Shown here: positions 1,831 through 64,000 of the stretch, piece by piece
Position numbering within the stretch: position 1 is the first letter of the stretch
How the letters are laid out: every line of letters begins with the position of its first letter
Source: Artocarpus heterophyllus
Taxonomy: Eukaryota; Streptophyta; Magnoliopsida; Rosales; Moraceae
NCBI GenBank assembly: GCA_025403435.1
Contig: CM046343.1
Coordinates: forward strand, 30,476,930 to 30,540,929
DNA: 64,000 nucleotides
Direction: 5' to 3'
The notes under the pieces: model-generated
Told to the model about the DNA's origin: nothing
Seen by the model: the letters and a program-made list of their open reading frames with translations, nothing else
Databases searched by the model: none
Position numbers and translations under genes: made by a program

Positions 1831-4800
1831 TTAGCTTGAATGGAGGAGGAGCAGGTCCAATCTTCCAGTCCATTCTTGACCAGGCTTCAACAAGATGGGG
1901 TTCTCAATTAATGCCCCATCCACACAAAGTGTGCGCTTGTACTCGTCGTCTCCAAAGTCTACCATCGCTTTGGATTTCCTCTCCCATGGATTCCAAACCA
2001 CTGCGGACAAGAAAAGCTCAATGTCAGAGGAAGTCATGTATACAGTATTTTTTGCCATTTCACCTTCCAATACATGTATTGAACATCATAGAGACAAGTT
2101 TGTAACTCATTAACCTTTGTCCTAAAGTTAGGACACCCATGTAATCTTTGTTAAAGAGGCATAGGAGTCTGAGGTATAACATGATCCTCCATGTTGCAGG
2201 AAAAAGTGACGATCAAATTCCAAAATGAATTATCTTTCGTTTAACCTGACTTCAATATTCTCAGGTTTCACTTTTGCATCTTTTAAAAAAGGTGTTTTTA
2301 TAATCCCAGATCCCATATAGAGCTGCTGATAATAATTACAATGCTTGAATTTTGAAATTTTTGTTTCGTCTTATGACCCCCAGTTTAGGACTTTGAGGAG
2401 GTTATAACATAAAAGAATGCCAAAAATGTTAACAGTCTGTGTTTAAAATTTAGGCAAGGAAATGAATGGTACCAACATCCGGAAGTCCCTCCTTCATTAT
2501 GACAAATGTCCGCTTCTTCTCATGATCCAAAATAGCCGCCTTGCTTGAAGTGCTAAGATACACTCGATCCACCTGCTAGAAAGAAACAGAGAAGTGAAAC
2601 CTCGACAAGCAGGATACTTCCAATCTGTTAACAACCAAATGAACACGATTGCATTGGAAATTTTGTTCCCGTGAGTTCTAAAAGTGAGGTTTTCTGTCAC
2701 ACTTTACCTCAGATTCAAATGTTAAGGAATCTCCTTGATCAGTGAAGCGCTCTCTCTGACGTAGGTTGTCAAGATAGTCTTGAGTCTCCAGGCCTTCAAT
2801 CCTCACTTCACTGTTAGACAATGTATATGTGACCCTTGCTTAACGCTCAGAACATAATGAAATTGAAAGCTAACATGATTCTAATAGAAATGGCTCACAT
2901 TCAAATTCTCATATTTATAAGAAAAACCAACCTGACTTGAACTTTGCCTACCTGATGTCAGAGATGGAGAAATATGTATGAAAGGCAAATGAGAAACTGA
3001 AAGGCTTGCAATTCATGTTCCTGACGCGTGCAATCAAAGATAGATTCCCATCAGCCCCCAAACAGACCCTCAGACGAAGCTCGAAACTGGGAGAAACATG
3101 ATTCAATCGTCATTTTCTCAATATAATTCAATCGCCATTTTCTCAATATTTGTTTTTGCACAAAAGTGAACTTTCATATGTGGCTGATTTCTTCGAAAAC
3201 TTTAAACAACGAATGACCATAAATTATTTTAACCATAGAAGATCATACCTGTGTGGCCAGACCTTGAGATCTTCATCAGACGGCTTGAGCAGCAAATCAA
3301 TGAATGTCTTTCCAGCGAAATTAATACCTTGCACAAAAGGTGGAGGATTCTTTTCAATGACCCAAAGCTTGTTCCTGGCAAACCCGTGTTGCTCCAGAGT
3401 TCCTCTGTTTCCAAACTACGAATTAAAAATCAAACCAAACCCCGTTATTAAGATGTAATGAAATTTTTAGATGATGAAACATACATGTACTCAACATGCA
3501 TATATTTACCTGTGGGAAACAAATTTGGATTCCTCCACGGACTGCCTTTGGTGGCTTAAAGACTGCCTACAGCAGTTGAATAAGAAAAAAAAGGGACAAC
3601 GAAAGGGACCAGAATTTTGTCAGAAGATATCAATGACAGATAAACAAGAAGATTAAATTGACGGAAAAGAAAAAGAAAGGAATCAGCCCGTACAAACATG
3701 TTACCAAAAATGCAGAACTGCCTTTCTTGGAGGCTTTTGCCCATCCACTCAAAACTTCTTGAACAAATTGCAAATTCCAATTTTTTGGAAGGTTTTATCA
3801 ACGCATGTAAACTTGTAAATCAATTGCAAAAATTCCCATTTCTTGGGGTGGTTCTCATTTTGCAAATAGTTCAAGACCGAAAAAAAAGAGCTATGCAGCA
3901 ACCCATAAGACAAAAAGTGTTAGAAAAATGGCAATTGGATGAATGAGAAATTGATGCTCATTGGTGGAGATTAATGGAGGTCATAAACCTCATATTGTAA
4001 CACCCAAAGGCATGGACTAATAGGTGATTATGAGCTTCATAATCATGAAAAATAGAGGGTTACACCCAATGGTTTAATGTGAGATTATGAACACCATTAT
4101 CATAATTATGAGCTTCATAATCATGAAAATGGAGGGTTACAACCAATGGTTTAATAGGAGATTATGAGCACCATTATCATGGGAAATGGAAGGTTGCAAC
4201 CAATGTTATTATGCACATAAATTCTGAATAATGCCTCATTATAATATGGATTGTAACTTCTATTCTCTTAAGCCTATATAATGAACTCTCCTCCACATGT
4301 TTGATACATACAATTGCATAGAATTTGCACTCACCAAGTCATAGAGTTTTTCCTTAGTTTTTCAAGTTCTACCAAGTTTTGTTGTAGTCGTTTTTGGTGA
4401 TAGAAGAAAAACACTGTTTCAAGTTCGCCGGAAACGGTATCCCATTGTGCTTAAGATTCCGTTGCTAGTCGTTGTATCCTGGGAGACAGACGTCCGTCGT
4501 ATCCTCGTGCACAACCGGAGGGGACGAATCTGTTTTAAGGAAAGCGTGACCTACACGTGCCTCGACTATTTCTGTTCAATTTCCATATTGCATTGCTTCC
4601 ATTGAAGGTTTTGTTGTATTTGTTTTCTTTAATTTCAATTTCTAATTTTTTTTTCAATTGTAACCTGTTCATTTTATCCATGCAATATATTGTTTGCAAT
4701 TCTTGGTAATAGTACATACAATATTGTGCTAACAATCTTAAAACAGAATCGCTTTTGAAGATGGACAGGTTACTAGAACGGAGAAATAAATCTTATTATT

Positions 4801-5043: not shown

Positions 5044-8000
5044 TAATTAGTTAACGTTTTGTGCATAATCTGTAAAAGTTTTGTTTCGTTCCTGTATGTT
5101 TACATTTTAAATATAAAAAGGAACTGTTCGTGTAATAGTTATAACAAAAGAATTGCTATACATATATTTTACGTTTCCATGGTGATTATAGACATTGAGT
5201 TTTGAGTATGGAAAAGTCTTTTATACTATTTCGTTCAAGTATTAATTTGGTTCGATTTCTTTATTTCATTTAATTGTAATTTTGATTATGTGCTTTCAAT
5301 CAAAATGTTATATAACTTTAACATTAGTGATATAATTGCTTTTCGCATTAGTATACATTTTGACATTTAACTATTACGGTTCTATTTGCCTGTGATCATT
5401 TAGTGTCAAGTTTGTAAACTTTTGGTATTATTGCTTCTATTTGTGCTGCCTGCTTGGCTGTTTTTTTTTTTATAAACACATGGTGTTATAAGTATGTACA
5501 GTTTTATATATTGATTTGAATAACATTTGTTTCCTATTGGAATCAGTTACTTCCTCATAATTGTTGGAGGTTTGCATTTTTATTATAAGTTACTGCTAAG
5601 TTTTTTTTTTGTTTCGTCTTTTATTATATATGTATAGTTATATTACAGTTTCTATAAACAGTTTTATATAATTTGTTTTGTTTTGATTTGTTGTTAATAA
5701 CAGATTGTTTAACATTTTATTGTTATCAATCTGTTTCTTTAATTTCAAAGGAAACTAATTTTGGTGTCATTTTTCAGTTGATTGAAGTTCATTGAAGAAA
5801 TAGGTGATAACATGAATGTTGTTCCAACTGAGAATGTTCCAACTGGGAGCACTTTTGAGACACCGATGCCATCTCCTAGGGTCCATGCTTCAACCTCGAC
5901 ACAACCTTTGTTGGTTACGGTTCTTGTGAACCACAATGAAAAACCTGAAAAATTTAATGGACTGAACTTTAAAACTTGGCAACAAAAAATGTTGTTCTAT
6001 TTGACAACACTGAATCTTGCGAGATTCTTGAAAGAGGATCCTCCTACTGTTAGAGAGGATGAAACAGATGCTCAGACCTTGCTTGCTGTTGAAGCATGGA
6101 AGCATTCTGACTTCTTATGCAAGAATTATATTTTGAATGGCTTGACTGATGCACTTTATAATGTGTACAGTCCGAAAAAAACGGCCAAAGAAGTATGGGA
6201 GTCTTTGGACCATAAATACAAAATAGAAGATGCTGGTGCTAAGAAGTTCATAGTTGGACGGTTCATGAACTACAGAATGGTGGATTCTAAGACTATAATT
6301 AGTCAAGTACAAGAACTGCAATTACTCATTCATGAAATTCATGCTGAAGGAATGGTAATTAGTGAGTCTTTCCAGGTAGCTGCAATCATAGAGATGCTAC
6401 CCCCTGCGTGGAATGACTTCAAGAACTATCTGAAGCACAAGCGTAAAGAGATGAGCGTTGAAGATCTTATTGTTCGACTTCGCATTGAGGAAGACAATAG
6501 AATATCTGAGAAAAAGCTTTTTAACAAGTTTGTTGCCAAAGCAAATGTGGTGGAGCATGATAAAAGCTCCAAGAACAAGAAAACCAAGTCGGGGTTCAAG
6601 CTGGGGCCTAAGGGTGGAATTTCAAAGAAGCAGAAATTCCAAGGAAAATGTTTCAACTGTGACAAGGTGGGTCACAAGTCGGCAGATTGTAGGCTGCCAA
6701 AGAGAAACAAGAAGAAAGAGGCTAATGTGGTGGACACCATCACACAAGAAGTGTCAGACATTAGTCTCTCTGCCGTGGTCTCTGAAGTCAACATGGTGGA
6801 CTCCAACCCAAAGGAGTGGTGGCTAGACACTGGGGCCACACGCCATGTCTGCTGTGATAGAGCTGCTTTTGTTGAACTCGTACTGTTAGAAGTTGGGGAA
6901 AAGCTATATATGGGCAACTCTGCCACATCTGAGATCAAGAGCCAAGGGATGGTGGTTCTAAAAATGACATCAGGCAAGGAAGTCAAGCTGCAAAATGTGT
7001 TGTATGTGCCTGATATTCGAAAGAATCTCATTTCTGGAATTCTACTGAGTTCACATGGCTTCAAGATGGTTTTTGAAGCTGATAAAATGGTTTTGTCTAA
7101 ACATGGAATGTATGTGGGAAAGGGTTATGTGAAAGATGGGATGTGGAAAATGAATGTAATGGCTGTTAAGCCCAATTCCATCAATATAATTAAAAAGTCT
7201 TCCACTTATATGCTTGAGTCTTCTAATTTATGGCATAGTAGACTAAGTCATGTTAATTATAATACTTTGCGTAGATTAATTAACTTGGATCACATACCCA
7301 CATTTAATATTGATCCCAAACACAAATGTGAAATATGTGTAGAGGCAAAACTAACGAGATCTTCATACCAAATGATTGATAGAAATACTGAGCCACTTGA
7401 TTTGATACATAGCGATGTTTGTGATTTAAAATTTATTCAAACTAGAGGTGGGAATAAATATTTTGTTACATTCATAGATGATAGCACAAAATATTGCTAT
7501 GTATATTTGCTTAAAAGCAAAGATGAAGTTATAAAGAAGTTTGCTCTCTATAAGCAAGAAGTTGAAAACCAACTTAATAAGAAAATTAAGATGGTAAGAA
7601 GTGACCGTGGTGGTGAATATGTAGAACCATTTAGTGAATTTTGCGCACAACATGGTATTATCCACGAGGTTACGCCACCCTATTCACCTCAGTCAAATGG
7701 TGTGGCTGAACGCAAAAATCGTACCTTAAAGGATATGATGAATGCGATGCTGATAAGTTCTGGATTGCCACAGAACATGTGGGGAGAAGCCATTTTATCG
7801 GCTAATTACCTTTTAAATAAGGTACCCCGGAAGAAAGAAGACAAGACCCCTTATGAATTGTGGAAAGCTAGAAAGCCTTCTTACAAATACTTGAGAGTAT
7901 GGGGGTGTCTTGCAAAGGTAATGGTACCTATACCAAAGAAGATGAGAATAAGTCCTAAAAAGGTTGATTGCATCTTTGTTGGCTATGCCTACAACAGTAG

Positions 8001-11000
8001 TGCTTATCGGTTCCTCGTGTATGAATCTAAAAACCCTGAGATTCACAAGAACACGATAATGGAATCTAGGAATGCATCATTTTTTGAACATGTATTTCCT
8101 TGCAAATCCAAAGAGGATGGTCCAAGTTCATCTAAACGAACGTTTAAGATTATTGAAGAGAATAGTCAGGATCATCAAGAAGTTGAAACCGAATATGAAG
8201 AGGAAGAGCCTAGACGAAGCAAAAGAGCAAGGATAGAAAAATCATTTGGACCTGACTTTCTGACCTACATGCTAGAGGCTGAACCTCAAACTTTCAAAGA
8301 AGCTGTAAGCTTATCTGAGGGTCCTTTATGGAAAGAAGCCATAAAGGGTGAAATTGATTCCATCATGCAGAATCATACTTGGAAATTAGTGAACCTTCCT
8401 CTAGGAAGTAAACCGCTAAGTTCTAAGTGGATTTTCAAACTCAAAATGAAAGCTGATGGAACGATTGACAAGTATAAGGCTAGACTTATTATAAAAGGTT
8501 ATAGACAAAAAGAAGGCCTTGATTACTTTAATACTTATTCTCCTATAACGAGAATAACCTTCATAAGAATGATTATAGCGATTACCGCCTTGCGGAATCT
8601 TGAAGTACATCAGAAGGATGTAAAGACTGCTTTTCTTAATGGAGACCTTGAAGAGGAAATTTATATGGAACAACCAGAAGGTTGTATTGCTCCAGGACAA
8701 GAAAAGAAAGTCTGCAAATTGGTGAAGTCTTTGTGTGGGCTTAAACAAGCACCAAAGCAATGGCATGAGAAATTTGACAATGTTATGATGTCAAATGGCT
8801 TCAAATTAATGAGTGTGACAAGTGTATTTATGTCAAAAGAACAGACAATGGATATGTTATTCTTTGTCTGTATGTAGATGACATGCTAATCGTCGGTAGC
8901 AATGATCGGATGATCAAATCTACTAAAGATATATTGAACTCTAGGTTTGACATGAAAGACATGGGACCTGCCGATGTGATTTTAGGAATCAAAATCAAAA
9001 GGTCGCCTGATGGACTCATCTTGAGCCAGTCACACTATGTGGATAAGATACTTGACAAATTTAGTAAAAATGACACTGGTGTGGCCAGAACATCAATTGA
9101 TACTAGTCAACATCTGTCCAAAAATAGAGGAGAAAGTATATCACAGGTGGAATATGCTAGAGCGATAGGCAGTTTATGTACTTAATGAATTGTACAAGAC
9201 CAGATATTGCCTATGCTATAAGTAGTCTAAGTAGATTCACGAGTAATCTAGGAGATGATCACTGGAAAGCGATTGTTAGAGTACTCAGATACTTACGGTA
9301 TACTCGTAATTATGGGCTACATTATACAAGAGATCCTGCTGTTCTTGAAGGGTATTCTGACGCGAGTTGGATATCTGATATACAGGATTCTAAAGCTACA
9401 AGTGGATATGTATTCACTTTGGGAGGTGCAGCAGTTTCATGGAAGTCTTCAAAGCAGACGGTAATAACCAGATCTACTATGGAATCTGAATTTGTAGCTT
9501 TGGATAAAAGCGGTGAAGAAGCTGAATGGCTAAGGAATTTCTTGGAGGATATCCCTGAATGGCCTAAACCTATGCCTGCAATATGCATACATTGTGATAA
9601 TCAATCTGCTATTGGCAGGGCACAGAATGTGATGTACAATGGTAAGTCGAGGCATATACGTCGTCGACATAATACCGTTAGACAACTAATCTCAACTGGA
9701 GTCATGACAATAGACTATGTAAGGTCTAAAGAAAATATTGCGGATCCGTTAACCAAAGGACTGAATAGAGATCAAGTTGAGAAAACTTCAAGAGGAATGG
9801 GACTTAAGCCCATAAAAGAATAGGTCGAAACAGTGGAAACCCAACCTTGTTGACTGGAGATCCCAAGATCTAGGTTCAATGGGATAACTAAATTGAATAG
9901 ACTGAGTAAGATCACTGTGGGGGTTACCCCAACCCATTCCTATAATAAAAACAGTGATGCCCGTAGGGAAAGGTTAAGCAGTTTGCTTTTAATGATTCTT
10001 ATGCGTCGAATACGTTGAGAATTCGAGCGGAGTAATACGGGTTACTCTTAAGTAAGAAATCACCTATGTGAGAGAGAAGTGGGGCCGCTTCAAAGGAGAA
10101 TTGCTAGGGCTCAATTCTTTAGAAACTCTTGCAGAACCAGAGAGATGTTCATGGCCAAAATGAACATAACCATGAGAATTGAAACTGTGTCAGGAAAATA
10201 TCTGTGTTAGGTATGTTATCGTTTACACAAATGGCAGAACAGTTCAAGGACATCGCGTCTACTAGTCAGCCAGTAAAATAAACATACTTTCACAAGGGAA
10301 GGTTCAAGGGTTAACGCCTACCTATCCTATGCAGATATTAACCGTAGAACTCTATCATCGTGTAGTGTCTTCGTTTTTCCTCTGTAGTTTGTCAATTTCA
10401 TTCATGTGGGGGATTGTTAGAAAAATGGCAATTGGATAAATGAGAAATTGATGCTCATTGGTGGAGATTAATGGAGGTCATAAACCTCATATTGTAACAC
10501 CCAAAGGCATGGATTAATAGGTGATTATGAGCTTCATAATCATGAAAAATAGAGGGTTACACCCAATGGTTTAATGTGAGATTATGAACACCATTATCAT
10601 AATTATGAGCTTCATAATCATGAAAATGGAGGGTTACAACCAATGGTTTAATGGGAGATTATGAGCACCATTATCATGGGAAATGGAAGGTTGCAACCAA
10701 TGTTATTATGCACATAAATTCTGAATAATGCCTCATTATAATATGGATTGTAACTTCTATTCTCTTAAGCCTATATAATGAACTCTCCTCCACATGTTTG
10801 ATACATACAATTGCATAGAATTTGCACTCACCAAGTCATAGAGTTTTTCCTTAGTTTTTCAAGTTCTACCAAGTTTTGTTGTAGTCGTTTTTGGTGATAG
10901 AAGAAAAACACTGTTTCAAGTTTGCCGGAAACGGTATCCCATTGTGCTTAAGATTCCGTTGCTAGTCGTTGTATCCTGGGAGACAGACGTCCGTCGTATC

Positions 11001-12098
11001 CTCGTGCACAACCGGAGGGGACGAATCTGTTTTAAGGAAAGCGTGACCTACACGTGCCTCGACTATTTCTGTTCAATTTCCATATTGCATTGCTTCCATT
11101 GAAGGTTTTGTTGTATTTGTTTTCTTTAATTTCAATTTCTAATTTTTTTTTCAATTGTAACCTGTTCATTTTATCCATGCAATATATTGTTTGCAATTCT
11201 TGGTAATAGTACATACAATATTGTGCTAACAAAAAGAAGAAAGAAAATCGAAAACTTTCAAGAAGTTCACCTCATTACTAGTGAACAAAGGAATTAGAAC
11301 TATCTCATTCGGATTTGTAAACCAAATTGCAAAACCCCCATTTCTTGAAGGGTTTTACAATTCTGTGAATAGTGTGAGACTAAAACAGGCATTTTTTCAC
11401 GGGTATGAACATATCAATATGCTTCAGAATTTCTACGACCATAAACAAGGCAATAAAACATGAAAACCAATAAAGAAAAAATAAAAAATAAAAGAACTTT
11501 GAGAAGTTTACCTTACTACTAGTGAACAACAACTCTTCTCCACGGTCAGACGTCCAAGAACGAACCTGACCTCCATACAAGCTTACCTATAGTCATACGA
11601 CACAAAAGAATGCTCAATCTAAAGAACAAAATCAAGAAACGAGATCCAAAACTAGAATTTGTCGATTTCACACTCCAATTTTCATTTTTTTTCCATCATG
11701 CAAACAAGAAAAGAGATTCAGAACTAGGATTTGTCAGTTCTACATTCTAATTTTCACTATTTTTTTAACAGCAGAATGTAAACAAGAACGGAGATTCGAT
11801 TCAAGAACTTGCAATGCCATTCGGCCAAATTTCTACGAACACCAAATTCTCAGCAAAGAACACATGAAAAATCAAAGCACAAAACGAAAGGGTAATCGAA
11901 AGTGGAAACCGATCGATCAAGCAGCCATGAACGAGCAAAAGATAGTAAAGAACAAAAACTAACCCGCGCAGAAAAGCCCCCAGAACTCCTGAGAAGAACC
12001 TGATCGACTCCATTTCTGTCCTTCGCCACATCCACTGAGCCTCCTTTCTGACCACTACTCGTTCCTTTCTGATCACTACTCGTTCCAGAAGTGCTCAT
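1831..12098 (-). CDS. Glucose-6-phosphate 1-epimerase-like protein (aldose 1-epimerase superfamily)
   Basis: Eight exons, all in phase with GT-AG borders: 12098-11964, 11586-11512, 3566-3510, 3415-3249, 3086-2952, 2810-2708, 2572-2473, 2000-1831. They join to 942 nt, 313 residues, about the usual length for the plant family related to yeast YMR099C, which interconverts alpha and beta anomers of hexose 6-phosphates. Recognisable family blocks in order are YGGQV (about residue 49), [26 protein letters not shown] (H181, the conserved histidine), VDRVYL, VVVWNPWE and the C-terminal LCVDGA/KPGQEW segment. The Ser- and Gly-rich first 30 residues are poorly conserved in the family; no clear targeting peptide is visible. 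The start is the only ATG at the head of exon 1, followed by an in-phase donor. Intron 2 carries a 7.3-kb Copia element in antisense orientation; without it the intron would be about 626 nt. No stop or frameshift disturbs the exons, so the gene may still work if the long intron is spliced. Family assignment is strong; the substrate is inferred. Confidence 0.9.
3918..4734 (+). repeat. 5' LTR of the Copia element at 3918-11231
   Basis: The 817-bp LTR has a TATA-like box CTATATAAT at 4274-4282. Upstream of it lie two tandem copies of a roughly 79-bp module (about 4022-4100 and 4103-4180). Each contains a near-palindrome, ATTATGAGCTTCATAAT, and the block GAGGGTTAC followed by CCAATGGTTTAAT. This is the usual position for enhancer modules in U3, but function is inference. 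Confidence 0.93.
5812..9823 (+). pseudogene. Copia gag-pol polyprotein broken by two single-base frameshifts
   Basis: I place the start at 5812; an ATG 30 nt upstream is also possible. An open frame runs to 8877. Seen in order are a UBN2-type gag (about 5940-6560), a CCHC knuckle [14 protein letters not shown] (6649-6690), protease motif DTGA near 6826, a GAG-pre-integrase block [10 protein letters not shown], integrase motifs [14 protein letters not shown] and AERKNRTL, and the start of RT. At about 8803-8808 the frame shifts by one base; the YVDD active site (8870-8881) lies in the new frame. A second one-base loss near 9174 moves RNase H (GYSDAS from about 9349, and ADPLTKGL) into a third frame. 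So the integrase is uninterrupted but RT and RNase H are split. Such a copy could only move with help from an intact relative. Confidence 0.92.
10415..11231 (+). repeat. 3' LTR of the Copia element at 3918-11231
   Basis: This copy has the same length (817 bp) as the 5' LTR and four transitions against it. It is followed directly by the second copy of the AAAAG target duplication. Confidence 0.94.
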
Positions 12099-32170: not shown

Positions 32171-32636
32171 TGTTGGAAACCAAATCAAACCAAATTCTAC
32201 CAAGATCGTTCATGTTAAATCATTAAGAGGAATAATTATAAATTGCAGAAGCGTACCTTGATTCATGATTATGGATCAATTTGGGTTATTGCCTTCCAAT
32301 CCAACATGTATTTCTTGAGATTTTATTTGAAGATGGGATTTCAAAGAAAACAGGAAGAGAATAATACGTACGTATGGATTGGGGACCATAACCAGAATAA
32401 ATAACTTTAGTTATTTTAATGTATTTTCAGTTTTAACCATCATAAAATCCAGAAATTACAAATTGGTATCTTCATATATATTATTAATAATAATAACCCA
32501 TACTTTATATTAATACCCAAAAGCCTTTCAACTTTATCTTAATTATTCCACTTTAATTTAGGCTTTACCTTAAGATAACATTAAACAACGTATTTAAATA
32601 CATATGTAGACCCACATGAAAAATTATTTTCCAACA
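32171..32636 (-). repeat. 3' LTR of the Copia element at 32171-36310
   Basis: 466 bp, matching 35845-36310 along its full length without indels. Confidence 0.92.
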
Positions 32637-33048
32637 ATCTCTCACTTGGGCCACATATGTTTCTTTGCAAAAAATGTGTTTACCTTAATGAGCTCAACTT
32701 TTGCTATCATATATAAGGGTATTCCTGAACAATCTCGTCCATTGATCATACCAACATAGGACCAAAGCGGTCTTTGTCACAAATATAACATGACTAGACC
32801 CATCAATGATCACACATATCGATATAACCAAATGACATAGATCAAGTATGGATGTGTAGCATGGAAATTACATGCAAAGTGATCTAAGCATGTCTATTTC
32901 CAACTGGTCCTACCTTATACCTCAATGAGATCAAAACCGTACCAAAATCAGAGTGTAAGTAAACTATATTCTTTATTTCTGCAGAAAACATATACAAACA
33001 CACAATGTCTATATATAAAGAAAATTAGCATTCAAATACAAACTCCCA

Positions 33049-35844: not shown

Positions 35845-36310
35845 TGTTGGAAACCAAATCAAACCAAATTCTACCAAGATCGTTCATGTTAAATCATTGA
35901 GAGGAATAATTTTAAATTACGAAAGCGTACCTTGATTCATGATTATGGATCAATTTGGGTTATTGCCTTCCAATCCAATACGTATTCCTTGAGATTTTAT
36001 TTGAAGATGGGATTTCAGAGAAAATAGGAAGAGAATAATAAGTACGTATGGATTGGGGACCATAACCAAAATAAATAACTTTAGTTATTTTAATGTATTT
36101 TTAATTTTACGCATCATAAAATCTGAAAATTACAAATTGATATCTACACATATATTATTATTAATAATAACTCATACTTTATATTAATACCCAAAAGCCT
36201 TTCAACTTTATCTTAATTATATCATTTTAATTTAGACTTTACCTTAAAATAACATTAAACAACATATTTAAATACATATATAGGCCTACATGAAAAATTA
36301 TTTTCCAACA
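35845..36310 (-). repeat. 5' LTR of the Copia element at 32171-36310
   Basis: 466 bp. Its outer end is about 290 bp from the start codon of the V-ATPase subunit E gene, and it points away from that gene. Confidence 0.92.
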
Positions 36311-36599
36311 ATTCACCCCTATAAATTTACCTCGGTGGCCAAAATGCAAATACAACCTAGTGTGAGAGCAGACATTGCAATTTACCTCCCGATGTATACA
36401 TTTCGCTAATTAAAAAAAAAAAACAACAAAAAAAAGGGATTCGTGTTGAGTTATTTTCTGATGGGAACCAATTTATGACGCGCTTTGGCTCAATAATAAT
36501 CGGGTGGATCCAGGAAGTTTCGCACTCTTCTTCCTCTCCTTATTTCGTCCGCTCTGAATCATCACTCTAACTCTCGATCGTCACTGTTGATCGCCGAAA

Positions 36600-52242: not shown

Positions 52243-52730
52243 ATCTATAAAAGTGAGAATGATTTGTTTTGGCATTATTCCATATGTCTCTTCCATATTA
52301 CTCCAGATGTCTTTATCATATCTTTTTTTCTTTTTTGTTGAATAGACTTACTCCACTTGTCTTTATCACAACCTCTCTTTTTTTTTTTAATGGGCTCTTT
52401 TTTTTTTTGCTTTTACTTCTTTTCATCTTTTTACTTTTTTTCTTTTTTATTTCTATCGTTTTCCTCATAACTTTATATCTATTTTTTTTCTTTTTTTATC
52501 AAACTGAATATGCACGCGCTTCTTTCTAGTTTATTTTAAAAAGTTTCAAAAATATGATTTTTTTTCCTCATTCTCTCCTAGATTTAACTTTGGGATCATC
52601 TCTTACCCCATCCTATTTTTTTCAATTGAGTTAGTATCAGTTCACAAAGAAACAATAGTGTTTTCTTTTCTATATATATATATATATATGAGAAAATATA
52701 TATTTATGATTTATCTTTTATATATCTTTA
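52243..52730. repeat. Left copy of a ~450-bp imperfect direct repeat
   Basis: Shares with 53492-53930, in the same order: ATAAAAGTGAGAAT, a GTCTCTTTCATATT-like block, GTGTCTTTATCA, a long T-rich tract, CAAACTGAATAT, TTTAGTTTATTTTAAA, TTTAACTYT, and TTTCTTTTCTATATAT followed by TTTATGATTTATCTTTTA. No ORF of interest. Confidence 0.8.
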
Positions 52731-53491: not shown

Positions 53492-53930
53492 CATAAAAGT
53501 GAGAATAGATTTTCTATATTGCTTCATGTGTCTCTTTCATATTGTTCCACGTGTCTTTATCACGTCCTTATTTTTTCTCTCTTTTTGAATGGACATTTGT
53601 GTTTTTGCCTTTTCTTCTTTCCGTCTCTTTGCCTTTTTCTTTTTCATTTCTATCTTTTTCCTTGTAGCCTTGTACCGATCTTTTTTTTTTTTCCAAACTG
53701 AATATAAGCACGTGCTTCTATTTAGTTTATTTTAAATAATTTTTAAAATCTGATATTTTTCCCATTCTTCTAAAAATTTAACTCTAGGATCTTCTTTTAA
53801 CCTATTCTATTTTTACCAATCGAGTTCGCACCAGTTTACAAAGAAGTAAGTAGTGTTTCTTTTCTATATATGCTTGAGAAGATATATATATTTATGATTT
53901 ATCTTTTACATGCAAGTACGTACGTATGTT
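53492..53930. repeat. Right copy of the ~450-bp imperfect direct repeat
   Basis: Homologous to 52243-52730. It has fewer TA units and several substitutions. Confidence 0.8.
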
Positions 53931-56610: not shown

Positions 56611-57977
56611 AAACATTAGGACATTGGACCGGAATTTAATACAGTGAAAATAACATTATTTATTTATTTATTTTTACGAAAGAGCAAAACTTCTAGTCTT
56701 TTTAATGCGCAAACACATATGTTGATTAAATTTCCAGGGGAACACCCTTTGCTAATGCAATCCAGGAACTCAAAAGGGGTATATGTGTTGAATGGACAAT
56801 TTACAGAAGGCAGGTTGGGCATGCTCCAATAATAGGAAGAGCAAAAGGGCAAAAACATAGCAGAAATCACCACAATCACCAAAGTGTCAAATCACATTGT
56901 GTAATCTAATTAATAACAGACAACAAGATGATCAATCCCCACCCTTCCCCCAATCACCAAATTGTAAAATCACATGGCCTAATTTAATTGGTTATAGACA
57001 ACATCCCTCCCTCACCCCTAGAAATGAGATCTACTTCTATGTAAAGCTCATTGTATAAGCACAGCCCAAACAAACGAAATAGATATATCACCCTAAAGAG
57101 GCAGCTCATCAAGTAATTCTTTGGAAACATTACGTGTGTTGATAAGTTATTACCATTAGCTTCTGGTACATTTCTCAACGCAACAGCCACCGCTTTAATC
57201 ACAATGTCATTCACTGAAACTTTAACATTATGCTGCTCTGCAATTATGGAAACGATGAGAATGATCCATCAGGTTTGAAGTATGACAAGAGGGGACAAAA
57301 AGGAACAATGAGAATTATGTTATATACCTTTGAGATCCTTTCTAAGTGAAAGAAGAGGATCCAGTACAACCTCTGATACACAAAGAATAAGAAAAGTGTT
57401 ATATACGGATTAGTTTACATCAACAGACGTATAATAGAGCATAGAGGATCATTACCTGATGATAAATACAAGTGTGGTGTATTTTGTTTTGATTCCAACA
57501 GCCTTCTAGCAATCACCTGCAAAACAAATTACAATCTTATAATGAGTTATAGACCCTCCACTTTGAAACAAATAATTAATCTCATATATCTTTCTTATAG
57601 TAAGAGTAGTTATGTTTTATAAAATTATACACAAAAAAATAAAATAAAATAAAAAACAAGCTTTTGATTTTCACCAAAGGAGAACAATAAATGCTGTTAA
57701 TCAAATGCTGTTAATCAAATTGCAGGCATATACAAACCACCTGTCAGATGAGATTAAGCCTACCTTCCTTATTTGACTATTTGGAAAATCTTCAAAACTG
57801 TCTTCCTTTTTCGGGTGGGATTTTGTTCGTGGTGATGATGCTAGAGCAGTACCCCGTTGGACTTGAGGAAATGGCGTTGTCTTTTCTTTAGACGAAGAAA
57901 CTTTTGAAGATCCTATTCCAGCACTGATTGCAGCTAAAACATCCCCTTTTAATAATGTACCGTGAGGACCTGATGCC
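54552..57977 (-). CDS. LTA3-like: Mitochondrial pyruvate dehydrogenase E2 (dihydrolipoamide acetyltransferase), 3' half, cut by a Copia insertion
   Basis: Eleven exons in phase: 57977-57764, 57516-57456, 57372-57328, 57237-57154, 56485-56409, 56332-56270, 55940-55870, 55762-55702, 55570-55510, 55408-55328, 54610-54552. They encode 291 residues. Visible are the C-terminal half of the E3/subunit-binding domain ([17 protein letters not shown]), a Ser/Pro/Lys linker, and the complete acetyltransferase domain: [61 protein letters not shown], and the catalytic [14 protein letters not shown]2 forms the core of the complex and transfers acetyl from lipoate to CoA. The wording matches the plant E2 form with ALRNV and SADHR rather than the SCDHRVIDG form. 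The 5' part (targeting peptide, lipoyl domains) is not in the window: the Copia LTR begins at 57978, in or exactly at the edge of this first exon. No stop or frameshift is present, so the half gene is well kept. Confidence 0.88.
54886..54990. repeat. Short dispersed AT-rich repeat (MITE-like), second clear copy
   Basis: Contains AAAGCTCTTAGCAGCTACA and a TATATGCTACAGTTC block, followed by ACTTCAGTT, as in the copy at 30831-30922. Confidence 0.5.
56579..56608. repeat. (GA)n microsatellite in an E2 intron
   Basis: About fourteen GA units between the exons at 57154 and 56485. Confidence 0.9.
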
Positions 57978-58368
57978 TGTTGGAAACAAAGTGCGCAGCG
58001 GAATTTTGAAAATTTTTCATCAGAGTATTTTCCAAAATACAAGTATGACATGTTATATGTATAAATTAAACAGATCTTACTAACCTCAGTGTGCCGAAGA
58101 ACTTCCGCGACCTGTGTAGAGAAGTAACGTTCCAGAAGAGCCTCAACCAACTGGTCTTCTTTGCTATTCTCTATCCACAACCGGAGTGAGTGTGGGCTCA
58201 CACGTACAGCTCTTCCACCGGTGACTCTCCTTCCAACCAATAGAGAGAACCCAAAGCTAGTGTTCGTGATTTGTGAACAAAAGCACTCAGGGAGTTTTTA
58301 GATGCTCACTAGAAGAGTATCACGCTTAATCTCTCAAATTGATCTGAGTAAATCATTAGACTCACTCA

Positions 58369-58377
58369 CTTTTTATA
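58369..58377 (-). promoter_or_regulatory. TATA box of the Copia LTR
   Basis: Minus-strand TATAAAAAG with CCAAT just upstream. The expected transcript start is near 58345, leaving an R+U5 of about 370 nt. Confidence 0.6.
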
Positions 58378-58494
58378 CCTATTGGTCCTTGGGGTCAGTC
58401 CATATCAGATTAGGTCTCAAAAATCAAAATAGAATCAAGTTCGGATCAATATCTGATAAGATACGCGTGAAAAACGCGTAATCTTAGCTGTCGC

Positions 58495-58580
58495 GGTCGG
58501 CATGCCGAACTGTGAGATAGGCAGGCCGAACTGGCCAGTTCGGCAGGCCGAACACGTCATCCGGCATGCCGAACTGCCGA
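58495..58580. repeat. GC-rich palindromic motif array in the LTR promoter
   Basis: Four copies of GGCAKGCCGAAC (K is T, G, G, T in order) occur within about 85 bp. Two neighbours create a perfect 18-bp palindrome, CCGAACTGGCCAGTTCGG, at 58526-58543. The surroundings are AT-rich. Confidence 0.85.
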
Positions 58581-60024
58581 GAAAAAATCTCCGCGAATCT
58601 TTTATTTTCCACCCGAGATTCTAAAGGATAAAGTCTCAGTTTTGATTCAAATAGCCCAATAAAAAAGATATCTGATCAAAACAAACTTTATCAAGATAAT
58701 CTCTAAGAAAATAAATCAATTCACAATAATTCTACAAGTTTATCTTGTTCTAATTGTCCAAAATTAAAACAACCGATAAACAGACAAGAATTATCCGAAC
58801 GCCATAATTCAACAAGTTCATCTTGAACTAATTTCTTACATAATTAATTCAACCGATAAACAGACATGAATTATTTGATTCTTATAAATTTTAAACCAAT
58901 CTGATAAATCCGACATAAGTCACCAATTATTGGAAAAGCACGCCGTGTCGTTACAGGACTTTGTGAGCTAGCAAAGGGGACCAAAATGGACCTATAAAGT
59001 TCAAGCTCATGATAATTATGAAACCCAATATCCCAGATATACATTTCACAATTATCAACTCCAACGCTACTCCACTAAAAGCTTGGAGCTGCACTCTCGA
59101 ACTTTACAGAATTACGAAGCTCGTGTAGCTAAGTCTCCATGACATATCATAGTGTATCGCATCCCCATATGATCATCCATAATCGGCTTAAGGACAAGTT
59201 CTGTCTTACCTTCCCGATTATTTTTATCTTACGTTCCATTGTCTCACCATTAGAAAACTTACCATCCAAAGATAGTATACCATTCGGTTACACCTATGTA
59301 TCCAAATGGTTGAGCGCTCCAGTTTTCCAATTACAGGACAACGCATATAAGAGGATATCATTACTCCTAAAGAGGAGCTATGGATTCCATATCTATGAAT
59401 AACAAGTCTACGCTATCAAGAGTCATGCCTCCAACGTACCGGCATGCATGCCACTATAGAGATGTGGGAGTCACCCATTGGTACATCAAAAGACACAAGT
59501 CGAGACAACGGGCCCATTATTCATCTCAGGATTAAGATACAATACAAACGACTGTCTAAAGTGAATCGATTTGCCAAGACAGAATTATTAATCCAAATCA
59601 ATTCACTTTATGTCCCGATCCAACACATCGTCACCTATGACAATGCGCTAATGTTTCTATTCACGGAGTCCAACTCCGATGGCCAAGACAAACCATCTCC
59701 CAAAAGGGATATAGACAACATAACAATCTTTACATGAATAAAGCGCCCAACTTTATTCCCTCGATTGCGGATCATATATTTTAGACCATCACCTTAAGAG
59801 TCGTGTCTACCGCATAATCATCCCATCATATGCCCAACTCTTAAGGTTTAGACTGACAGTCTCAGACTACTGTTTGCTTATCATACATTCAACGAATATG
59901 AACGTAAAGAGGACAATATTTGGTATATATAAATGAATAAATTCTTTATTGATAAAAATGTCTCCAAAAACGTATTACATTTTTACTCCTTAGAGCATAC
60001 ATGTCTAACAATCTCCCACTTGCA

Positions 60025-63000
60025 CTAAGTGAGTAAATACTGCAAATTTCGCATCCCCATAGCTTCCACATGCCTTTCGAAGACTCTCCCAGAAAGTGTC
60101 TTCGTAAATGGATCAGCTAAATTGTCCTCTGACGCGATCTTGCATACCGTGACATGCCCGCTCTCAACGAAGTCCTTTATCACATGATACTTCCGATCAA
60201 TATGCTTACTCTTCTTGTGAAATCTTGGTTCCTTAGCATTAGCTACCGCTGCACTGTTATCACAGTACAGTGATACCGCTTTATCCATACCAGGAACTAC
60301 CTCAAGATCCCCAAGGAACTTGCGGAGCCACACTGCTTCTTTCGAAGCATCACTAGCCGCCACATACTCGGCCTCCATCGTTGAATCCGAAGTGCAATCT
60401 TGCTTCGCACTTCTCCAACTGATGGCACCGCCACCCAGAGTAAACACAAACCCTGAAGTCGATTTCCTAGAATCCAGGCAGGATTGAAAATCCGAATCAG
60501 TGTATCCTAGAGGAGTTAAATCCTCACCCGAATACACAAGCATATACCCTCGAGTCCTTCTCAGGTACTTGAAAATATGCTTTACCGCAACCCAATGGTT
60601 TGGTCCTGGATCCGCCTGAAATCGACTCACAATCCCGACCGCATAGCTAATATCCGGTCGAGTGCAAAGCATGGCATACATGAGACTACCCACTGCCGAA
60701 GCATAAGGCACCTTCTTCATGTATTCTCTTTCTTCATAAGACTTTGGAGAGTCTTTCTTAGAAAGAGTAATTCCAGACCTAGATGGTTGCCCACCTTTCT
60801 TGGAATCCTGCATTGCAAACCTCCTGAGAATTTTATCTATGTAGCCGGCCTGTGACAAAGCTATCATTTTGTTCTTCCTATCCCGCAAGATCTGGATACC
60901 GAGAACAAAATTAGCCTCACCCAAGTCCTTCATGTCAAACTGCTTGGTCAACCATAATTTGACCGATGACAACGCCCCAACGTCATTGCCAATTAGCAGA
61001 ATGTCATCTACATAGAGTAGTAGAAAAACCACCTTCCCATTCTTAATGTGTTTGTAAACACATGGTTCATCCACATTTTGTGAGAACCCATAAGTCTTGA
61101 TCACTTGATCAAATCTTATGTTCCAAGAACGAGAAGCCTGCTTAAGTCCATAAATAGACTTTAGCAACTTACAAACCTTACCCTCTTGACCCGTGACCTT
61201 GAACCCGTCTGGTTGTTCCATATAAATGGACTCATCAAGATAGCCATTCAGAAAAGCCGTCTTGACATCCATCTGCCAAATCTCGTAGTCGAGAGCGGCA
61301 GCTATGGACAAGAGAATCCGGATGGACTTAAGCATGGCTACAGGCGAAAAGGTTTCCTCATAATGGATTCCTTCCTTTTGCGTATAACCCTTAGCTACCA
61401 GTCTAGCCTTAAAGGTTTCGACCTTTCCATCCACTCCTCTTTTCCTCTTGTAGATCCACTTACACCCTATGGGTTTTACCCCTTCGGGAAGATCCACAAG
61501 CTCCCAGACACGATTAGTCTCCATAGACTTCATCTCAATGTTCATGGCCTCTGTCCAGAGTCTTGAATCAACATCCTCCATAGCTTCTGCGTAAGTATAA
61601 GGATCCCTGTCATGTTCATCCGGTTCAGCCAAAAAGACCTCCCCATTGAACATATACCTCTCAGGTTGACGCCCGATCCTCCCACTACGCCGAAGCCCCT
61701 GAGGTTGTTGTTCAGGTTTGTTTGGTTTTTCTACACCGATCGGAATGGTTTCGTTCGGAACCTCTGGAGTAAACGGATTACCCCTCAACTCCTCAAGCAC
61801 CACTTTGCTTTGAGGTTTAAAGTCGTTCATGTAACTCTCCTCAAGGAAAGTTGCATTAGTTGAAACCACGACTTTATTTTCCTTTGGGTTATAAAAATAA
61901 CCCCCTTTAGTCCCTTTTGGATATCCTACAAACACGCAAACTTCTGAACGTGCTTCCAACTTATTCGGATCCTTAAACAGGACATGAGCTGGACATCCCC
62001 ATATGCGAATATGGTTTAAGGATGTCTTCCGTCTTGTCCACAACTCGTGAGGAGTTTTAGGGACCGATTTTGAAGGCACATTGTTCAAAAGATAACATGC
62101 GGTTTGTAGTGCATATCCCCAAAAGGATAAAGGCAATGATGAATAACTCATCATGGACCGAATCATGTCCAACAAAGTCCTATTCCTTCTCTCTGCTACG
62201 CCATTCTGCTGCGGAGTGCCCGGCGCAGTCAAATGGGATAAAATCCCATTCTCTAACAAGTGTCCCAAGAACTCATCAGAAAGGTATTCTCCACCTCGAT
62301 CTGATCGAAGTGCCTTTATGGGTCTACCCAATTGCTTTTCCACTTCAGCCCGAAACTCCCTGAACTTATCATAAGTTTCGCTTTTGTGGTGCATTAGGTA
62401 CACATACCCATATCTTGAGTAATCGTCAATAAAAGTGACGAAGTACTCATACCCTCCTCGTGCCCGGATGTTCATCGGTCCGCAAACATCACTATGCACA
62501 AGTTCTAGAACCCCTTCGGCCCTATTGCCCTTAGACCCGTATGGTCTTTTGGTCATTTTACCCTCCAAACAAGATCCACATTGAGGTATAGATTCCACCT
62601 TTAAGTGACTTAAAGGTCCATCCCTTACCAACCTTTGAATCCTATTTAGGTTAATATGGCCAAGGCGCAAATGCCAAAGATAAGTCTTATTAGAGTGAGA
62701 AGTTTTAAGTCTTTTTGAGTTATTATCATTTATCTCAGCATTAAGCAACAAGTCCATCTTAGGTTTGATAAAATATAGATTATTTTGCATCCATCCAGAA
62801 CAGATAAAAGATTTGTTTTTACGAATCACCACTTTTTCATTAAAAGATACCACGTAGGAGTCTTTAAATAAAGAAGATACAGAAATTAAATTCCTTTTAA
62901 ATTTAGGAACATAAAAACAATCTCGCAAAATTAAACTCCTATAATTATCAAAATAAAGATGGACATCTCCCACTGCTTCCGCTGAGACCAAGGATCCATC

Positions 63001-63978
63001 GCCCATCCGAAGCGTTAAGTCTTCACGAAGTAGACTTCTCGTTTCTTTGAATCCCTGCAGAGAAACACAAACATGATTAGTTGCACCAGAATCTATGACC
63101 CAAATGTCACTGGATTCCTCAACCAAACAAGTTTCTAAATATAGAAGATCACACCTACCTCCCTTGGAAAGGAAGTCCTTGCAATGCTTCTTTATATGCC
63201 CGACCTTACCACAAAAGAAGCACTTAAGCTTCTTTGGGTTCTTCTTCTTCTTCTTCTTGCTCTTGATAGCAATAGGAATAGAAGACTTCCCACTCTTGGC
63301 CCGTTGTTTCTTTCCATTCCCAGAGTTAGGATTGGAACCAGAAGCAGCTACCATATTGGCCTCTCCACCAGCAGGAGACTCCCTGATCAGCAGTTCAAAC
63401 TCTTGTAACTGTTTCATCAGTTCTGTCAAGGTCATATCCCGTCTATTGCTTAGATTAAAAGTAGCTCTAAACGGAATAAATTCCTTAGACAGAGTCTCAA
63501 AGACCATAGTCATCTGAGTTTCAGCATCGATGTCGGCTCCATTGGTTTGAGCCTCAGCGAGGTAACCCATGACCAACATCATGTGCTCCTTTACAGATGT
63601 CCCCGGTCTCTGTCTACAGTTTAAGAGTTTCCGAAGCGCCCCTTGCCGCTTTGTTATGGCCTGGCCTCCAAACATGTCCTCAAGATTATCCAAGATCTGC
63701 TTCGCAGTCTCATAATCCTGATGTTGAGCCTGCAGCACGTTATTCATGCTAGCCATAACATAGCAGCGGGCCTGATCATTAGCATCTTTCCAACGTTCGT
63801 ACGCTTGGAATTGCTCATTACTTGAGTCTCCCGTAGGCTCGGGAGGACAAGGAGTTGTCAGTACATATTTCAGTTTCTCAAAGGATAGGACGATGTCCAG
63901 GTTCCGTTTCCAATCATTATAGTTCTCACCGGTTAATTGGTTTTTGTCAAGTATCGATGATAAAGCGTTTTTAGACAT
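60025..63978 (-). CDS. Intact Copia gag-pol polyprotein
   Basis: A single uninterrupted frame of 1317 residues from the ATG at 63978. Domains in order: UBN2-type gag (about 1-210); CCHC knuckle [14 protein letters not shown] (about 253-266); protease DSGATNH (about 296); GAG-pre-integrase [13 protein letters not shown] (about 434); integrase with D497, D560 and E596 ([22 protein letters not shown]), spacing D-35-E as in the family; RT with YVDD at 989-992; RNase H with D1161 (GYTD), the MEAEY glutamate near 1202-1204 and D1240 (YCDNS); C-terminal ADPFTKTL. Every catalytic residue I can check is present. The codon before the ATG would allow an earlier non-ATG start, but ATG at 63978 fits better. 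It is the only complete retroelement protein in the window and may be autonomous if the off-window 5' LTR is sound. Confidence 0.93.
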
Positions 63979-64000
63979 TTTCAATCTACAATAAAGAATC

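Follow-up and report, generated by a model that had tools for sequence, protein, structure and literature searches.

A recent sense insertion of a Copia element inside the subunit-binding exon of a PDC E2 component 1 gene, itself a member of a duplicate pair, very probably explains this locus; the gene was split, and an AUG within the LTR appears to have fallen into the E2 frame by chance. The window, which is the whole stretch of 64,000 nt that was analysed, comes from Artocarpus heterophyllus (GCA_025403435.1, CM046343.1; C17:30476930-30540929), and the searched genome was the 985-Mb assembly. Extended coordinates carry the numbering of the window on past 64000 into the neighbouring C17 DNA. 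The combination of a young Copia element in a housekeeping coding exon and an uninterrupted second copy makes the fate of the break, whether LTR read-out, cryptic splicing or plain loss, directly testable. The window gave no match in Rfam at gathering scores, and literature searches on general terms showed no account of this locus among the papers listed.

Table 1. Coordinates of the E2 exons, the Copia element and the candidate intron.
Feature	Position	Strand	Remark
E2 exon, part 3´ of the insertion (ASGPHG...NSQIRK)	57764..57976	-	continuous in orthologue fragments and in the second copy
Ten further E2 exons with the acetyltransferase domain, to the stop codon	54552..57516	-	
E2 exon pieces 1-6	57976-57764, 57516-57456, 57372-57328, 57237-57154, 56485-56409, 56332-56270	-	
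E2 exon pieces 7-11	55940-55870, 55762-55702, 55570-55510, 55408-55328, 54610-54552	-	
Candidate 108-nt intron (GTTAGT...CCAACAG)	57977..58084	-	acceptor formed by the LTR end and host G; holds ATG 58051
In-frame reading, portion encoded by the LTR (from ATG 58051)	57978..58051	-	24 full codons and CA of codon 25
3´ LTR of the Copia element (TGTTAG...CCAACA)	57978..60010	-	2,033 bp; matches the 5´ LTR; polypurine tract just upstream
LTR TATA box (TATAAAAAG)	58369..58377	-	sequence motif; putative function
Copia gag-pol frame	60028..63978	-	1,317 codons as it stands
5´ LTR	extended 67640-65635 (C17:30542564-30544569)		outside the window; 28 nt missing at its start relative to the 3´ LTR

The E2 gene on C17 lies in two halves on either side of the element. 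The 5´ half comprises 12 exon pieces with 343 open codons (MALSRLRQPV to ITEHGLD), ends at extended position 67641 and directly adjoins the 5´ LTR, in which the native E2 frame runs for 33 LTR codons and then meets a stop. The eleven exon pieces of the 3´ half are separated by GT-AG introns and keep the frame to the stop codon. Two lipoyl stretches are located in the 5´ half only and the acetyltransferase domain in the 3´ half only (Pfam domain cut-off, E ≤ 0.001), and the subunit-binding domain is divided between them; the full set of PDC E2 component 1 domains in one frame, by which gene membership was judged, is not found on C17. Loss of function of this copy would be expected.

The position of the element within an exon was established by comparison with relatives. 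The border region of 96 residues was used as the query against a protein database that contains many plant fragments, and it returned 66 matches, 65 of which are E2; the remaining one (P0067, E = 1.9e-3) is another LTR copy read as a frame. In 62 of the 65 E2 fragments, at least 14 residues run continuously into ASG, and the other three (P0025, P0060 and P0065) start too near ASG for continuity to be judged. The VED/VEN start was recognised in 19 of the 65 and is preceded by K (16), Q (2) or T (1). K or Q at this place is expected where translation continues in phase 0 from an intron ending AAG or CAG into the exon; T occurs in P0012, the one spliced NCBI protein. Four fragments (P0006, P0009, P0013 and P0018) continue beyond QIRK into other sequence. 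This continuity indicates that the native exon reaches well upstream of ASG, and by this sequence comparison the Copia element interrupts an exon of the PDC E2 component 1 gene, not an intron. The border CAACAG/GC might also be read as an LTR end that has replaced the acceptor of a native intron. This reading was rejected, because both the orthologue fragments and the second copy show one continuous exon.

The second E2 copy is located on C278, an unplaced contig of 252 kb, and shares 90% identity with the C17 gene across the 213-nt exon piece. The corresponding exon runs without a break through 6404-6808 (GLDTSSLKASGPHG), and no internal stop occurs in the reading between the first lipoyl exon and the stop codon, with the first exons placed by location. 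Both lipoyl domains, the subunit-binding domain and the acetyltransferase domain are all present. An assembly search with the full-length relative P0068 gave strong exon matches on C17 and C278 and weaker E2-family matches in the contig pairs C13/C14, C7/C8, C21/C22 and C9/C10. The pairing of these matches suggests a duplicated genome in which C278 carries the partner copy of the C17 gene. Within 100 kb, the C278 flanks and the window region share scattered, repeat-like matches only. The uninterrupted C278 copy would be expected to supply E2.

The C17 and C278 copies were compared on both sides of the break. The dN/dS ratio is 0.25 in the 5´ part (265 codons, dS 0.12) and 0.20 in the 3´ part (292 codons, dS 0.14), and these values reflect constraint during the long period that preceded the insertion and say nothing of use after it. 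Constraint in the 3´ half as a sign of use was therefore rejected: the two halves have similar ratios, and the break is too recent to have left a signal. The 3´ coding half is open and unchanged on C17, an appearance that would also be expected if it were in use.

The element has the structure of a Copia retrotransposon: a single frame carries Copia-type gag, integrase and reverse transcriptase (Pfam matches include Retrotran_gag_2, rve and RVT_2). Its two LTRs (57978-60010 and 65635-67640) are accompanied by a primer-binding site (TGGTATCAGAGC) after the 5´ LTR and a purine tract before 60010. A repeat search confined to the window found no second LTR. The first-pass annotation had called the element intact, which is apt for the single open gag-pol frame but not for the 5´ junction, where the LTR lacks 28 nt and the adjoining host exon 14 nt. 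Relative to C278, these 14 nt are missing between GGATTGGAC and G 57977. No target-site duplication is visible, and no copy of GGCAT stands beside the 5´ LTR. The missing duplication is read as a later or concurrent loss, most simply through a deletion that spans the 5´ junction. The LTR pair differs by four substitutions and one 1-nt indel over approximately 2,006 bp, which points to a young insertion. Assumed substitution rates would place it at about 77, 142 or 399 thousand years ago. The interval from 63979-64000 on to extended 65634 places approximately 1.65 kb between the 5´ LTR end and the gag ATG, a leader of unusual length among Copia elements.

The 3´ LTR faces the E2 3´ exons in the sense direction, and a transcript from it could span them. 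Judged by the position of the TATA box, transcription would be expected to start near 58345. ATGs at 58403 and 58356 precede this point, the latter by only 11 nt, and ATG 58051 is the next one downstream of 58356 on the minus strand. It had been described as the first ATG after the expected start, as opening a frame that passes the LTR/host border at 57978 without a stop, and as leading in phase through all later E2 exons to a product of 316 residues; each of these points was reproduced. Codon 25 at the border consists of CA from the LTR and host G 57977. As had been proposed, the 316-residue reading contains an acetyltransferase domain and no lipoyl domain: Pfam finds acetyltransferase only, and the lipoyl stretches belong to the 5´ half. 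The reading had also been credited with half the subunit-binding domain; the match to this domain comprises 35 residues of the C278 protein, 21 before ASG and 14 from ASG on.

The LTR border itself supplies a candidate splice site. The LTR ends with CACTTTGTTTCCAACA, and the next host base, G, completes a 3´ splice site in codon phase 0 (TTTGTTTCCAACAG/GCA). A donor in U5 (GAG/GTTAGT), from which the candidate intron would begin at 58084, is kept in 40 of 41 LTR ends. Splice matrices were built from the introns of the gene itself, and native sites were scored either leave-one-out (20) or with themselves included (21). By the leave-one-out scores, the candidate donor exceeds 11 of 20 native donors and the candidate acceptor 16 of 20 native acceptors; with native sites included, the values fall to 6 and 5 of 21, respectively. 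Scores as high occur in approximately 2% of the 4,237 GT and approximately 2% of the 4,670 AG dinucleotides on the minus strand. The candidate sites are within the native range and are ordinary rather than outstanding, and the intron length of 108 nt and its GC content of 30% are also within the native range. Splicing would probably remove ATG 58051 from many LTR-driven RNAs. The spliced RNA would have a leader without ATG; its first ATG gives MF-stop, and its first in-frame ATG opens a reading of 129 residues (MTPIVRN). LTR-driven RNA would be mostly non-productive. An in-frame AUG in an LTR says little where a splice acceptor arises from the end of that LTR.

The first-pass annotation had suggested that mRNA from the 3´ LTR retains ATG 58051 and encodes an E2 of 316 residues with an LTR-derived N-terminus, part of the subunit-binding domain and no lipoyl domains. 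The coding capacity is as described, with first AUG, open frame and splice phases in agreement, but the ATG lies inside the candidate intron, its frame is polymorphic in the family and the assembly carries an uninterrupted copy of the gene, and we consider such a protein very unlikely. The best hydrophobic moment of the LTR peptide was reached by 1,403 of 2,000 shuffles, so that it carries no amphipathic signal above shuffled peptides; the native leader was reached by 270 of 2,000, in a weak test in which the leader does not stand out strongly either. One search for proteins that contain the LTR peptide (lengths of 174-553 residues) gave seven candidates, none at E ≤ 10. In favor of such a product, truncated E2 cores are described as assembling in other organisms in one report (PMC2880790), by analogy with which a lipoyl-less subunit could fold. 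A further precedent is mouse DicerO, an N-terminally truncated, functional protein of oocytes that is made from the promoter and first exon of an MTC LTR (PMC8069103). By the same route, the LTR within the E2 gene could contribute a promoter and the initial codons for a protein truncated at its N-terminus. DicerO as described there differs in that its LTR is intronic, its first exon is spliced and its expression is known, whereas the present LTR splits an exon, its AUG falls within a candidate intron, and the evidence is DNA sequence.

The frame of ATG 58051 was compared among 41 LTR ends, which are the best 40 of 877 first-look candidates (including the window's own) together with the 5´ LTR and thus represent the closest copies. 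The ATG is present in all 41; in 37 of them it lies 74 nt from the LTR end, in the other four 75 nt. Its frame stays open as far as the LTR end in 19 and meets a stop in the remaining 22, a polymorphism within the family. Within the element, the indel between the two LTRs shifts the corresponding ATG of the 5´ LTR into another frame. With 19 of 41 ends open, chance suffices for an in-frame fusion, and by our estimate approximately 8% of coding-exon insertions would show one (one-third for frame and one-half for orientation). For a sense insertion, fusion in frame is nothing unusual. The in-frame position of AUG 58051 would accordingly reflect chance agreement between the LTR frame and the phase of the exon. 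Among 32 host-labelled ends (31 in fact, because L036 is really a shifted primer-binding site), 21 have a G next to the LTR, and this count is unusable since the G formed part of the query and the places had been ordered by match.

Acceptor 57977 could also be joined by the donor of the upstream exon at 67943 (score 4.9) or by a cryptic donor at 67775 (score 6.0), which would remove the element. Native read-through transcription would then yield an E2 that stays in frame and retains the acetyltransferase domain and both lipoyl domains, with most of the subunit-binding domain gone. Both donors join 57976 in phase 0, but a phase match is expected once in three per donor, the regular acceptor, located at 67814 before VED, is available as a competitor, and read-through of approximately 9.7 kb past two LTRs would be required; this course is very unlikely. 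In a report on Arabidopsis (PMC12112155), transcripts of genes with new insertions of the Copia element ONSEN are described as starting or ending alternatively within the LTR, and one insertion in an exon as intronized over its full length. The present Copia element in a gene fits the range reported there, although element and gene differ and the evidence here is confined to DNA sequence. The two outcomes could also coexist, with CAACA and host G as a working acceptor that has turned the exon insertion into a large intron: an in-frame E2 with both lipoyl domains and the acetyltransferase core but no working subunit-binding domain would be made along with an LTR-driven lipoyl-less subunit, and either could enter cores of the second-copy protein. 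Such a double output is highly improbable.

The preferred reading thus remains a split gene. Under this reading, the element would have entered the exon coding for the peripheral subunit-binding domain, the 5´ junction would have lost 14 nt on the exon side and 28 nt on the LTR side, and the LTR end would have made an acceptor that, with the U5 donor kept in the family, allows AUG 58051 to be spliced out of many RNAs. In the maize waxy gene, retrotransposons are reportedly spliced out. The likeness lies in LTR elements that alter splicing in a plant gene.

Several other repeats were observed in the window. Two tandem-like copies with 83% identity (58726-58794 and 58804-58874) are located in the LTR upstream of the TATA box. 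Downstream of E2, a diverged direct repeat (52352-52723 and 53546-53911, 76%) has weaker matches near the C278 copy. A 468-bp direct repeat with 93% identity (32171-32638 and 35845-36312) is spaced by 3.7 kb, and an 818-bp direct repeat with 99.5% identity (3918-4735 and 10415-11232), 6.5 kb apart, perhaps represents the LTRs of another young element.
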